Positions 3,853 through 32,056 of a stretch of 36,625 nt of DNA are shown one piece after another. The position numbers and the translations under genes were made by a program. The stretch is taken from contig JAGGVH010000041.1 in assembly GCA_021158105.1 (NCBI GenBank), positions 1-36,625 of the forward strand, in the 5' to 3' direction. The first letter of the stretch is position 1, and each line of letters begins with the position of its first letter. This DNA comes from Microcaldota archaeon. GTDB taxonomy: Archaea; Micrarchaeota; Micrarchaeia; Anstonellales; JAGGVH01. The notes under the pieces are model-generated. The model saw only the letters and a program-made list of their open reading frames with translations, was not told the DNA's origin and did not search any database.

Positions 3853-4248
3853 TTACAACATAATCAATTCAAAATTGTATATCTTTTTTAGCTTTTTAAA
3901 ATCTTTATCAAATGTAACCAACTTTGCATTGTTCAGCCTTGCAGTTGACATTATCATCAGGTCAGCCATAGTAAATTGATATCCTTTTTTCATGCACATG
4001 TTTTTTATGTTTGCTGATTCTTTTGCGATTTGTGTGGTGATTGGCAATGTGTTGACATTTTCAATGAATCTCTCAACTGCGTTTACATGCATTCTGCTCT
4101 TCTTTTCTGCGGCCCACAACAATTCGTAAACTGTTATTACTGAGATGTACCATCTGAATGCAGGAATGTCTATATTTTCAATCTTGTTTTTTAATTTTTC
4201 ATTTCCTTTCAACCATTCTATGGCAGCAGATGTATCAAAAATTAACAT
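3853..4248 (-). CDS. vapC: VapC-type PIN-domain ribonuclease toxin
   Basis: 'MLIFDTSAAIEWLKGNEKLKNKIE', 'FTMADLMIMSTARLNNAKLVTFDKDFKKL': the PIN acidic residue pattern. Confidence 0.85.
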   Translation of the reverse strand: MLIFDTSAAIEWLKGNEKLKNKIENIDIPAFRWYISVITVYELLWAAEKKSRMHVNAVERFIENVNTLPITTQIAKESANIKNMCMKKGYQFTMADLMIMSTARLNNAKLVTFDKDFKKLKKIYNFELIML

Positions 4249-5357: not shown

Positions 5358-6608
5358 ATGAAAAATGAGAAGAATGAACATTGGTCCGGGATAACAGGTT
5401 TTTTGATTGCTGCTATTGCCGGTGCAGTAGGACTGGGCAATTTCTGGAGAATGCCATACCTGGCGTCACAATATGGTTATGTTCCATTCTTCATAGCATT
5501 TATCATTTGCGTCTTCTTTGTCAGCATTCCAATAATGTTTATTGAACTTGTGGCTGGAAAACTGTTTAAGGTTTCTTTTATGAAGGCATACAAGAATGTT
5601 AATTTTCCATTGCCTGGCTATATATCGTTTTTTTTGATAATCATATTAACAAGCTATTATATTGTAGTTGCGGGGTGGGTATTTTCTTATGTGTTGACAT
5701 ATCCTTTTTATAACTTAAATTTCCAGCAACTTGTTGACAATAATATTGCACCGTTGGGGTATGTCTTTGTTTTGATAATATCTGCCATACCTGTTTATCT
5801 TGGAGTGAAAACTGGCATTGAAAGGTTTTCTAAGATATTTATGTTGTTATTGTTTTTCATCACTTTATTCATTCTGTTTGTTGTATTGTCTGAAAATCCA
5901 ATCCCTATTATAACATTATCATTTCCTATGGATATTAATGTTTGGATGTTGGCATTTTCGCAATCATTCTTTTCGCTTTCAGTAGGGTTTGGAGTGATGT
6001 TTACGTATGCAACGTATATCAAGCAGAAGACTTCAGTGTTTACAGATTCTTTGGTTATAGGGTTGTCTGATGCTATTGTGGGATTGATTGCAGCGTTCAT
6101 AGTTTTTGTCCTGTTAAACGGGGAGGTTAATACACAGGGTGCAGTATTAGTGTTTGATGTGTTATCATCAGTGTTTATAAATCATGCCATTGGATGGCTG
6201 TTCTATTTTTCGTTATTGATTGCAGCAATAACATCAATAATTTCGCTTTTAGAGTTCATAGTTTCAAACCTTAAAGGTTATGGTCTGAGTAGAAAACGTG
6301 CTGTTGTGTATACAGTATTGTTTTTTATGTTTCTGGGGTTGTTTCCTGCTCTTAGTTATTCTTCATTTTCTTTAAAGATTTTTAATCTTCCAGTCCTGGA
6401 TTTTTTTGATAAGTATATTATAGGTGCAACGTCATGGTTAGGCATATTCTTTTTAACATTCTTTGTATGGAAGATTGACAAGGAGAAGTTTACAAAGCAG
6501 TTGGGTGCAGGTGTTTTGGGTGATATAATATTTTATTGGTGCAGGTATATCTTACCGTTGTTTGGTCTTGTCATGGCGTACATAAGTTTAAAATTTGTGT
6601 TTGGATAA
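5358..6608 (+). CDS. Sodium-dependent transporter, neurotransmitter:sodium symporter (NSS/SNF) family
   Basis: 'WSGITGFLIAAIAGAVGLGNFWRMPYLASQYG' is the NSS TM1 signature; multiple TM segments. Confidence 0.92.
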   Translation: MKNEKNEHWSGITGFLIAAIAGAVGLGNFWRMPYLASQYGYVPFFIAFIICVFFVSIPIMFIELVAGKLFKVSFMKAYKNVNFPLPGYISFFLIIILTSYYIVVAGWVFSYVLTYPFYNLNFQQLVDNNIAPLGYVFVLIISAIPVYLGVKTGIERFSKIFMLLLFFITLFILFVVLSENPIPIITLSFPMDINVWMLAFSQSFFSLSVGFGVMFTYATYIKQKTSVFTDSLVIGLSDAIVGLIAAFIVFVLLNGEVNTQGAVLVFDVLSSVFINHAIGWLFYFSLLIAAITSIISLLEFIVSNLKGYGLSRKRAVVYTVLFFMFLGLFPALSYSSFSLKIFNLPVLDFFDKYIIGATSWLGIFFLTFFVWKIDKEKFTKQLGAGVLGDIIFYWCRYILPLFGLVMAYISLKFVFG

Positions 6609-6627: not shown

Positions 6628-7785
6628 ATGGAATTACCGCGTGCAGAGATCAAAAAGGAGCCAGAAGATTTTATTGTTGAGGAAATACTTCCTAATGGTC
6701 ATGTGTTAAATGTTGATACTGTTTACAGTCATGATGAGGGAAGGAAGGATGGGAAGTTTGTCCATTTTATCATGCAAAAGAGGGATTGGGATACTAATTC
6801 TGCGATAAAACGAATAGCGCGTGCGCTCAGGATAAGTCATAAGAGGTTTAACCATGCTGGGACAAAAGACAAGTTTGCAATAACTACTCAGAGGGTTTCG
6901 TGCTTTGCGTGCGACAAGGATAAGTTACTTAACCTTAAACTTAAGGACATTAAGATTTTAGGGGCATGGTATGAGAATGATAAAGTCAGGTTGGGTGAAC
7001 TGGCCGGCAACCGGTTTAAAATTAGGATTTATACTGAAAACAATGCTGATGGTGTCAAACCTTTAAACATGTTCTTCAACTTTTTTGGTCCTCAGAGGTT
7101 TGGCACGACAAGGAGAAATACTCATTTGATTGGAAAGAATATGCTTTTGAGCGATTATAAAAGTGCAGTATTGTCTTATTTATTAGACTCAAACAGTGAA
7201 CATTCTGAAACTGCCAAAGATGCAAGAAAGAGGTTAAAAGATGACTTGGATTTTAAGAAGGCCCTTATTTATTTCCCAAAGTATTTAAGGTATGAGCGGA
7301 TTTTGCTTTCTCATCTGGCTGAACATCCGACAGATTATATAGGTGCACTGCGCAGGTTTCCCCGGAGCACTGTATTAATGTTTATCCATGCTTATCAATC
7401 CTATCTGTTCAACATGGAGTTGTGTTATATGATAACTCACAATTTTGATTTGTCGTATAACACTAAACTCAACATAATAGGTTATGAAACTGAGGTTAAT
7501 GACATAGAAAAGATGATATTAAAAAAGGAAGGTCTAACAAAAGAGATGTTTATGCTTAAGTCAATGCCTGAACTGAGCGCCAAGGGTAACTTCAGGAATG
7601 CGATAGAGGTTGTGGACGAGCCGCAGTTTAAAGATAACATTTTTATATTTTCTCTGAGGCCAGGAGCATATGCTTCAACATACCTTCTTCATCACTTCAC
7701 TATTGATTCTCTGCCACTTCCACCTGGGTTTTCACGTCAGTGTATGCAGGAAAGCATAAAGAAGCTCTCAGATTTATCTTTTTAA
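6628..7785 (+). CDS. truD: tRNA pseudouridine(13) synthase TruD
   Basis: 'HAGTKDKFAITTQRVSCF', 'FFGPQRFGTTRRNTHLIGKNML'. Confidence 0.92.
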   Translation: MELPRAEIKKEPEDFIVEEILPNGHVLNVDTVYSHDEGRKDGKFVHFIMQKRDWDTNSAIKRIARALRISHKRFNHAGTKDKFAITTQRVSCFACDKDKLLNLKLKDIKILGAWYENDKVRLGELAGNRFKIRIYTENNADGVKPLNMFFNFFGPQRFGTTRRNTHLIGKNMLLSDYKSAVLSYLLDSNSEHSETAKDARKRLKDDLDFKKALIYFPKYLRYERILLSHLAEHPTDYIGALRRFPRSTVLMFIHAYQSYLFNMELCYMITHNFDLSYNTKLNIIGYETEVNDIEKMILKKEGLTKEMFMLKSMPELSAKGNFRNAIEVVDEPQFKDNIFIFSLRPGAYASTYLLHHFTIDSLPLPPGFSRQCMQESIKKLSDLSF

Positions 7786-23948: not shown

Positions 23949-23970
23949 TTGACAATTCCATTTGAAAACA

Positions 23971-24066
23971 CTTTTTAATCATGCTCTTAAAATATTAAAA
24001 GAAAGCGGTTTAAAGGCAGTCTTTGATTGGGCTGTTAATAAGATAAGAAGGTTAATAGAAAATTAG
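23971..24066 (+). pseudogene. C-terminal remnant of the zincin-type protein encoded at 31340-32056
   Basis: In-frame 'LFNHALKILKESGLKAVFDWAVNKIRRLIEN*' vs 'LFDHAFKILKESGLRAVFDWGVGRIRKVL'; high nucleotide identity, no upstream start or body. Confidence 0.75.
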
Positions 24067-29706: not shown

Positions 29707-29727
29707 AAAAGCCCCAGGAGGGATTTG
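29707..29727. repeat. Duplicated tRNA 3'-end (candidate att copy)
   Basis: aaaagccccaggagggatttg is identical to 31077-31097, i.e. the tRNA-Thr T-loop half, T-stem, acceptor 3' strand and flanking TTTT. Confidence 0.75.
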
Positions 29728-29743
29728 CTCTCTTGTCAAAATT

Positions 29744-29794
29744 TGTATCATCTATAATACATTTTTTAGGTATTTTTGTATCATTCACGATACA
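29744..29794. promoter_or_regulatory. Tandem operators TGTATCAtctataATACA and TGTATCattcacGATACA
   Basis: Two 18-bp (im)perfect palindromes (29744-29761, 29777-29794) spaced 33 bp, directly before TATA-like tttttaaat of the ATPase gene. Confidence 0.65.
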
Positions 29795-29823
29795 TTTTTA
29801 AATCTTAATGCACTAATTTAAGC

Positions 29824-31071
29824 ATGAAAGAAGTGATAAAGAAAATAATCTCAGAAGGATGGGATTTAAAACTAAGTTATATACCACGAAATCTAATATC
29901 ATCAGAATTGATAACAAGTAATGTGCCTTTGGTACTCACCGGACCTAGGCGAGCAGGTAAGAGTTATACGATGTATGAGATTAGAGAAGTGCTAAGAAAA
30001 AAAGGCAAAGATTTTGTATACATAAACTTTGAGGATGAGCGTTTATTACAATTTAAAACCGAAGATTTTGACCTTATCCTTGAAGCATATTACGAGCTAA
30101 GAGAGGAAAAACCAGTGTTATTCTTTGATGAGATTCATAATGTTAATGGATGGGAAAGGTATGTTAGGAGGCTTGCAGATAATGGATACAAAGTTGTCAT
30201 AACAGGTTCTAACTCTAAAATGTTAAGCAAAGAGATTGCAGAAAGATTAGGTGGCAGATTTATCGAGATTAATATCTATCCACTCAGTTTTAAAGAATTT
30301 CTTAAATTCAAAGGTGTTGAGTTTAAAGAGGAATACTTATACTCTAAACAAAGGTTCAAGTTAAAGAAATACTTTGATGAATATCTTGAGTTTGGTGGGT
30401 TCCCGGAAGTTTCGTTATTCTCTGGGAAAATGAGTAAAGAAAAACTTCTTAACACCTATTTTGACCTAGTGTTCTATAAAGATTTAGTCTCTCGAGAAAG
30501 AGTAGAAAATGAAGAAGTTCTCAAACTTATAATTAAAAAATTAAGAGAGAACATAGGTAAATTAATAACTCCAAGGAGGATCTACTCTTTCTTAAAAGAA
30601 TCAGATATGCCTATAAGTCCTAATACTGTTGACAGGTATATTAACTATTTACAAGAATCATTTCTAATCATTTCTTGTTTACCTTTTGCAAAATCAGTAT
30701 CAAAACAGATACGTAAGAAGAGATACTTCATCGATAATGGTTATGTTAAGTTATTTGAGATAAAAGAAGATAAAGGATTGATGTTAGAAAATTTGATATT
30801 TACAGAATTAATAAAAAAAGGAAAGAAAGTGTTTTATCATCTTGGGCAAAATGAATGTGATTTTATCTTAGGTTCAAATGAAGCAATGCAGGTTACGTAT
30901 GAACTGAATAAAGAAAATGAAGATAGGGAAGTGAAAGGTCTTTTGGAAGCTATGAAGACATATAAACTCAAAAAAGGATACATAATAACCAATGATCAAG
31001 AAAAAGAGATAAGAGTTAATAACAAGAAGATCATAATCATGCCAGCATGGAAATGGATTTTAAAAAATTAA
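29824..31071 (+). CDS. AAA-type ATPase with DUF4143 domain
   Basis: 'VPLVLTGPRRAGKSYTMYEI', 'KPVLFFDEIHNVNGWERYVRRLADNGYKVVITGSNSKMLSKEIAERLGGR', 'FGGFPEVSLF', 'QNECDFIL'. Confidence 0.92.
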   Translation: MKEVIKKIISEGWDLKLSYIPRNLISSELITSNVPLVLTGPRRAGKSYTMYEIREVLRKKGKDFVYINFEDERLLQFKTEDFDLILEAYYELREEKPVLFFDEIHNVNGWERYVRRLADNGYKVVITGSNSKMLSKEIAERLGGRFIEINIYPLSFKEFLKFKGVEFKEEYLYSKQRFKLKKYFDEYLEFGGFPEVSLFSGKMSKEKLLNTYFDLVFYKDLVSRERVENEEVLKLIIKKLRENIGKLITPRRIYSFLKESDMPISPNTVDRYINYLQESFLIISCLPFAKSVSKQIRKKRYFIDNGYVKLFEIKEDKGLMLENLIFTELIKKGKKVFYHLGQNECDFILGSNEAMQVTYELNKENEDREVKGLLEAMKTYKLKKGYIITNDQEKEIRVNNKKIIIMPAWKWILKN

Positions 31072-31080
31072 TATGGAAAA

Positions 31081-31209
31081 GCCCCAGGAGGGATTTGAAC
31101 CCTCAACCTCTCGCTTTCCCACACAGGATTTCTTAGTGCAGGTTCTTTGCTGCCGAAGCAGTAAAGAAAGTGCTACGAGGCGAGCGCTCTACCATTGAGC
31201 TACTGGGGC
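31081..31209 (-). tRNA. tRNA-Thr(CGU) with 58-nt intron at 37/38 (intron 31116-31173)
   Basis: GCCCCAG-TA-GCTC-AATGGTA-GAGC-G-CTCGC-CTCGTA^intron^A-GCGAG-AGGTT-GAGGG-TTCAAAT-CCCTC-CTGGGGC. BHB: CUCG/UGGG central helix with bulges UA^G and AA^A. No encoded CCA. Confidence 0.93.
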
Positions 31210-31339: not shown

Positions 31340-32056
31340 ATGGAACAAATGCGTAAAAAAGCTTTAAAGAATAAGATAAAAGTTCATGGTCTATTCCCTA
31401 AAAAGCGTAATGAATTTTTAGATAAATTCTTAGATTATCAAAAAGAACTTGAATCAGAATTGGGTATAAACATTTGGGAGATGCTCGAAAACCTTCCAGA
31501 AAATATCATTGTAAAACCTTTATCTGTAGACTTAGATTTCAAGAGTTTTTATGTAGGTAGGTGCGAATTAAAAGAAAAGAAGATGTTTATTTCACATTTC
31601 TTACATGATAATAGGTATAAGGTAGAGTTTACGATTAATTTTAGTATTTATTCTGTAAATAAAGAATTGTTCGATTCTCCATTCTTTGAATTTTTGAAGA
31701 AAGCAAAAAATGTTGACACAATGGCAGGGATCACTAAACCAATAATAATCCACGAACTTATGCACTTAGCTCTTGATGTTTACTTTCTTTATGAGTATGG
31801 GATAGATTATCTAAGAACGCTTAGCAATTCTATGAATGATGTTAAAATGGTTCACGAAGCAGTGGCGTATGTCACAGGATACCATTTTGGTGGAAAATTA
31901 CCCGATGATAAAAAGTTTAAATTTGGCATAATCAATCAAGAGCTTTTTGATCATGCTTTTAAAATATTAAAAGAAAGTGGTTTAAGGGCAGTGTTTGATT
32001 GGGGTGTTGGAAGAATAAGAAAGGTGTTATTTGGTTCTTCGTCACCACAAGAATGA
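31340..32056 (+). CDS. Predicted zinc metallopeptidase-like (HExxH) protein
   Basis: 'KPIIIHELMHLALDVYFLYEYG' (HELMH), followed by 'VHEAVAYVTGYH'. Confidence 0.55.
   Translation: MEQMRKKALKNKIKVHGLFPKKRNEFLDKFLDYQKELESELGINIWEMLENLPENIIVKPLSVDLDFKSFYVGRCELKEKKMFISHFLHDNRYKVEFTINFSIYSVNKELFDSPFFEFLKKAKNVDTMAGITKPIIIHELMHLALDVYFLYEYGIDYLRTLSNSMNDVKMVHEAVAYVTGYHFGGKLPDDKKFKFGIINQELFDHAFKILKESGLRAVFDWGVGRIRKVLFGSSSPQE

Follow-up and report, generated by a model that had tools for sequence, protein, structure and literature searches.

Several kinds of mobile DNA resemble the locus described here. Archaeal integrative elements that target tRNA genes, such as those of the SSV and pNOB8 types and proviruses including ArcVen-P3, share with it the direct repeat of a tRNA 3' end and the overall layout, in which the element lies downstream of the tRNA and the tRNA stays intact. 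Archaeal integrases classically use as att site a repeat that begins in the T-loop and continues to the tRNA 3' end; a case of 55 nt has been described at tRNA-Ser (PMC4158269). Two further kinds, the gene cassettes of integrons and the dif modules of plasmids, are one-gene units located between recombination sites, and are thought to be mobile without a recombinase of their own. The protein encoded at the locus belongs to PDC-S01, the COG1373-like ATPases listed by PADLOC as a candidate single-gene defence family. According to the sections of PMC12988326 consulted, S01 is the fourth commonest prokaryotic defence gene and an ATPase fused to a PD-(D/E)XK-like domain, its defence role is that of an unvalidated candidate, and several candidate families are enriched in DPANN; these sections contain no mention of a one-gene mobile unit, direct repeats or duplicated host gene ends. 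A similar ATPase, likened here by description only, is arCOG03166, an AAA+ ATPase fused to an HTH and a RecB-like nuclease, which is common in dark matter islands and "likely involved in defense (or some plasmid gene)" (PMC4158269, "Dark matter in archaeal genomes"); single-gene mobility and repeats are absent from that account. PDC-S01 is among the most frequent candidate defence genes of archaea and bacteria, and its spread was undescribed in the literature found; one-gene mobility and duplicated gene ends were unreported in the literature searched, which covered few subscription journals.

The window, that is the whole stretch of 36,625 nucleotides analysed here, from a Micrarchaeota archaeon, contains a tRNA-Thr gene whose 3' end recurs exactly, as the original prediction had described (Table 1). 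The two copies of AAAAGCCCCAGGAGGGATTTG start 1370 bp apart, with 0 such matches expected by chance, and a pattern search of the whole assembly (962 kb, 50 contigs) found these two copies only, which excludes a common genomic repeat; the other match in the assembly carried three mismatches and lay at the 3' end of another tRNA-Thr. The repeat spans the tRNA from C56 of the T-loop to position 73. The proposed origin from a tRNA 3' end was therefore correct, although the proposed split of about 17 tRNA and 4 flanking nucleotides has to be replaced by 18 and 3. A mis-join of the assembly at the 21-mer is unlikely because 21 bp is shorter than the usual assembly k-mers. The assignment of the tRNA to Ser(CGA) by ARAGORN with introns was rejected as mis-spliced, since reading by hand, with the 58-nt intron spliced at 37/38, gave the anticodon CGT (Thr); the matching gene of a relative (G002) was called Thr(cgt) by ARAGORN.

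Table 1. Features of the locus (window positions) and repeats around related ATPases in other loci (locus identifiers)
Feature	Position or locus	Strand	Evidence or remark
Displaced copy of the tRNA-Thr 3' end (distal repeat)	29707..29727	-	18 tRNA nt + 3 flanking nt; 21/21 match
Putative inserted unit, 1349 bp (operators, promoter, ATPase gene)	29728..31076	+	borders at -96 from ATG and +5 from stop
Operator-like palindrome TGTATCATCTATAATACA	29744..29761	+	sequence
Second operator-like palindrome TGTATCATTCACGATACA	29777..29794	+	sequence
TATA-like box TTTTTAAATC	29795..29804	+	sequence only; about 24 bp before ATG
AAA_14 + DUF4143 ATPase, 415 aa, PDC-S01 family	29824..31071	+	Pfam, PADLOC, AF2
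Proximal repeat (3' end of the intact tRNA-Thr gene)	31077..31097	-	
tRNA-Thr(CGT) gene with 58-nt anticodon-loop intron	31080..31209	-	Rfam RF00005, E 1.3e-12; ARAGORN with introns
Repeat from Nre	L270		64/70 identical
Repeat from arginase	L269		31/33
Repeat from AMP phosphorylase	L261		38/43
Repeat from RIO kinase	L086		33/42
Repeat from Nif3 (spirochaete)	L172		36/36
Copies of an approximately 100-bp repeat	L115 (G051): 779-881, 2284-2374, 4066-4174, 5608-5716, 6632-6715		

Between the two repeat copies, the ATPase gene was the sole ORF of at least 80 aa, preceded by the TATA-like box and by two palindromes of the form TGTATCN6(A/G)ATACA. ORF list, Pfam and sequence agree that the contents are a lone AAA/DUF4143 ATPase with its promoter and operators, as proposed, and the upstream neighbour, taken before for a GH114-like gene, was assigned to GH114 by Pfam. 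No integrase was found among the ORFs of at least 80 aa between the copies by Pfam, in agreement with the absence noted earlier; the sole tyrosine recombinase that Pfam recognised in the assembly is Xer-like (236-265 aa) and lies on another contig (C21). No transposase was found between the repeats in the ORF list or by Pfam, and the unit has no terminal inverted repeats, its inverted arms being A+T-rich matches away from the ends. A DDE or other IS-type transposon was rejected on these two grounds and for want of a fixed short target duplication. The exact repeat and the content between its copies support the view that DNA with one gene was inserted where the tRNA ends and that this end was duplicated. 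We consider it probable that the segment 29728-31076 represents a mobile unit of one gene, whose insertion at the 3' end of tRNA-Thr(CGT) duplicated the target. Compared with the elements of the SSV and pNOB8 types, the unit lacks an integrase and measures 1.35 kb, not many kb, and its ATPase family also occurs at the 3' ends of protein genes and at one promoter.

The ATPase consists of a P-loop domain followed by DUF4143 (Pfam AAA_14, E 1.7e-38; DUF4143, E 6.6e-13), and matched the PADLOC PDC-S01 profile PDLC04787 along nearly its full length (residues 18-414, E 6.6e-105). The AF2 model (mean pLDDT 93) contains an AAA+ domain, a middle helical/winged-helix region and a C-terminal PD-(D/E)XK-like fold, and its nearest solved structures were the archaeal AAA+ ATPase SSO1545 (2FNA, the closest in the PDB) and Cdc6/Orc1. 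G45-K46 of Walker A and D102-E103 of Walker B were invariant across 42 sequences. As read from the model, residues 317-407 are arranged in the α-β3-α-β order of PD-(D/E)XK enzymes; E322, E344, D346, and Q356 in this C-terminal part were invariant in the 42 sequences, and the position of the usual lysine was occupied by C, T, S, or A. The host genome contained 35 AAA_14 matches in 0.96 Mb. The benefit to the host is probably defence against viruses or plasmids, a prediction made at the level of the family.

Comparison of related ATPases in unrelated contexts showed that the DNA held in common was limited to one gene together with some 60-110 bp upstream of its start and 5-60 bp downstream of its stop codon. 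The identity was 92.8% from -64 to +38 for L073 and L094, which come from different families, 92.2% from -102/-107 to +6 for L092 and L093, 89.3% from -81 to +11 for L137 and L145, and 91.2% from -72 to +52 for L177 and L187 of a single genome; the repeat-bracketed pair L113/L112, at 77.5%, likewise had the unit alone in common. The ends of the window unit, at -96 where the distal repeat ends and at +5 where the proximal repeat starts, coincide with these borders. No target duplication of at least 10 bp was found in the unit pairs with known borders, which implies that the duplication is either not universal or not persistent. The original prediction had left the choice between a minimal element and a collapsed remnant. 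The remnant would be what is left of a larger tyrosine-integrase island in tRNA-Thr, namely the ATPase and both att copies, and the T-loop-to-3'-end repeat does match a classic archaeal att site while a tyrosine recombinase is encoded elsewhere in the genome; but the one-gene content recurs at several unrelated gene ends, with repeats that directly abut the promoter and the stop codon, and deletions would not end at the unit borders every time. Since many genomes show this one-gene design, at a variety of gene ends that are unrelated to each other, and related ATPases share exactly that unit, the remnant was not supported and is unlikely; the one-gene insertion is supported.

As judged from their sequences, the repeats around these ATPases fall into two kinds, borne by the element or derived from the target, and the repeat of the window is of the second kind. 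Target-derived repeats were the 3' ends of conserved host genes, including Nre, arginase, AMP phosphorylase, RIO kinase, and Nif3 (Table 1). The lengths of the host-derived repeats were 21, 33, 36, 42, 43, 70, and 86 bp and hence not fixed. Where the repeats were coding, their copies differed by 10 synonymous changes to 6 others (p 4e-4 against random change). In L261 (3023-4231), the last codons of the ATPase are the copied tail of AMP phosphorylase, read in frame (FEMRKMLRGSMQ vs VEMRKMLLGSMQ), and the stop codon of the tail is used. A non-autonomous cassette bracketed by att sites, moved in trans by a tyrosine recombinase of the host or of foreign origin, such as the Xer-like enzyme, is an improbable explanation of the locus: one Xer-like recombinase is present in the genome, gene 3' ends are typical targets of such enzymes, and the synonymous lean looks as if one copy came from the gene of another lineage, but the repeats, from 21 to 86 bp, have no apparent common core, and we rejected the lean as proof of a foreign att copy because selection on the intact copy, once the insertion had taken place, would also produce it. 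By the same analogy, window-type repeats appear to differ from the sites of integron cassettes and dif modules in deriving from the target, with no attC or dif-like common core seen.

Element-borne repeats were copies of the palindromic operator-promoter region at both ends of the unit, which were better kept than the gene. The 41-bp repeat of L113/L112 was 97-100% identical around an ORF of 77.5% identity, with nothing in common outside, and the 38-bp repeat of L073/L094 was 100% identical within an entire stretch of 93%. For L113/L112 and for L073 (416-1501) and L094 (2208-3293), which lie in different contexts, the homology ended at the repeats or within about 20 bp of them. These operator copies (97-100% in one group of relatives, against 77-93% for the ORF) are what would favour a functional repeat, in which paired operator or terminator copies at gene ends serve regulation and no scar is involved. 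For the window we hold this to be very improbable, since the repeat there is tRNA sequence without palindromic symmetry, located outside the operators, and no operator of the window type is present downstream.

The family-wide statistics were obtained from 140 regions that surround ATPases in the host genome and in up to 58 relatives of the same order, by aligning 300 bp before each start to 200 bp after the stop and accepting a repeat score of at least 16. Direct repeats bracketed 61 of the 154 related ATPases, compared with 10 of the 440 other ORFs (Fisher p ~3e-30); a few of the 61 come from the tandem arrays L090, L143, L188, and L194, and shuffled pairings gave a bracketing repeat in 0.3% of cases. 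A wider family model was used in the later counts because "other" ORFs with repeats in the first round had proved to be ATPases of related families, and some of the 10 may likewise be unrecognised ATPases. In a wider bacterial and archaeal set, where the same arrays were retained, 20/86 ATPases and 6/321 other ORFs were bracketed. Among exact repeats of at least 20 bp, the commonest span was that of one gene (ORF length plus 500 bp or less), found at 17 of 62 ATPase loci and at none of 108 controls. Of the ATPase junctions in Micrarchaeota, 27/98 showed a duplicated end of a neighbouring non-ATPase gene, as did 6/201 of the controls (p 1e-9); the corresponding figures for the wider set were 9/53 and 1/164 (p 1.4e-5). 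This screen also catches operator repeats overlapping a gene end. No clear enrichment of ATPases beside tRNAs was observed. The proposed search for other DUF4143 ATPases at tRNAs gave one case, the ATPase of L166, which abuts the 3' end of a tRNA-Val gene without a displaced copy, and many others that show the window pattern at the ends of protein genes. A chance local duplication of the tRNA end unconnected with the ATPase is scarcely credible, for although replication slippage can copy small tRNA ends, the expected number of matches was 0, the copies sit at the unit borders and the pattern is family-wide.

The arrays L090, L143, L188, and L194 consist of nearly identical ATPase genes in tandem, in which each repeat carries the 3' end of the previous copy. 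Their repeats were rejected as insertions and read as ATPase 3' ends within paralog arrays.

Sites without the ATPase were found for several of the related loci. In the host genome (G000), the promoter of an HTH-CBS gene is present in two 86-bp copies, and the ATPase of L094 (5986-7296) lies between them; a genome of another family (G009) has the HTH-CBS gene (70% protein identity) with one promoter copy and no ATPase. This comparison is one-sided, as the gene on the far side of the other copy has no recognisable counterpart there in G009. In four relatives, the AMP phosphorylase gene has as its immediate downstream neighbour a gene from which about 2.8 kb separate it in the occupied genome; this stretch contains two further genes besides the ATPase. 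Nif3 is single-copy and free of the ATPase in two sibling genomes of L172. The joined-flank, two-sided search for empty sites within the fetched loci returned array self-matches only. For the tRNA-Thr site of the window, no empty form was found among the relatives, which include one genome of the same genus, without the exact tRNA end; in other genomes the tRNA end was single at each tRNA gene and the flanking genes were not syntenic with the window. The flanking gene at 31340-32056 gave no usable synteny in the 58 relatives. The closest ATPase homologs, L035 and L036 (63%), were not at a tRNA and had no repeats.

A window-like promoter, 77% identical over 53 bp including TTTAAGCAT (E 2e-5), was found in a genome of another family (G004), where no ORF of the window type is left. 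Within 2.5 Mb of loci, where about one chance match is expected, the operator motif occurred at the window gene, its ortholog L065/L036 (G053) and this relic only. The relic promoter is suggestive of a trace of the unit at the same tRNA. In L204 (G004:C51, 2660-2745), the orphan promoter/operator points at the 3' end of tRNA-Thr(CGT) from about 660 bp away, and next to it is a different type of ATPase, which has operator repeats at either end.

What is observed is the repeat, a single gene as content, unit borders in relatives that agree with those of the window and host gene ends duplicated around related ATPases; together these suggest that the unit moved as DNA. On the preferred reading of a one-gene mobile unit, the segment would be an autoregulated PDC-S01 ATPase gene that carries its own operator and promoter, and its insertion would leave the last 21 bp of the target in duplicate, which keeps the tRNA whole; insertion at gene ends would keep the cost low. 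Two routes can be envisaged. In one, the unit inserts between staggered cuts that are then filled in, so that the target duplication varies in length; in the other, a small circle, in which the sole intergenic stretch resembles the target, is integrated there by one crossover. Either would fit the repeats, since their lengths vary (21 to 86 bp) and no core is apparent. The candidate enzymes would be the ATPase itself, a Xer-like recombinase or integrase acting in trans, and homologous recombination by the host. Similar scars in dozens of related ATPase genes suggest that one-gene units are the form in which they travel, settling at gene ends and leaving the host gene unbroken. More tentatively, PDC-S01-type ATPases, with their AAA+ domain and nuclease-like C-terminus, might be self-mobile, the protein cutting or capturing the target, inserting its own gene with a long and variable duplication and preferring gene ends; on that view, one of the commonest candidate defence families would form a new class of mobile DNA, either selfish or dual-use. 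If true, one-gene movement to gene ends would explain the many copies in tiny DPANN genomes, and these genes would represent a mobile unit whose target duplications are long and variable and which has no recognisable recombinase of its own.

Beyond the genomes of the order, no relatives were found on viral contigs, and phage and plasmid records gave distant homologs at most. A homolog was present in 175 records of Acinetobacter plasmids. Such plasmids, among them those of L337, L339, L340, and L341, were rejected as a strain-level source of empty sites and are uninformative, because the PDC-S01-like gene lies in a conserved stretch without one-gene borders, where it adjoins WYL, DUF1819, and DUF1788 genes, a BREX-type neighbourhood. 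In L115, a repeat of about 100 bp occurs many times in an 11-kb region around an ATPase (Table 1). In the window, the orphan protein of 238 aa encoded at 31340-32056 contains a HELMH motif of the HExxH type, has no Pfam match and gave no convincing homolog in the 58 relatives. A frame of 31 aa at 23965-24057, located just before the adenine deaminase gene, matches residues 200-230 of this protein with 65% identity and resembles a fragment of a second copy of it.
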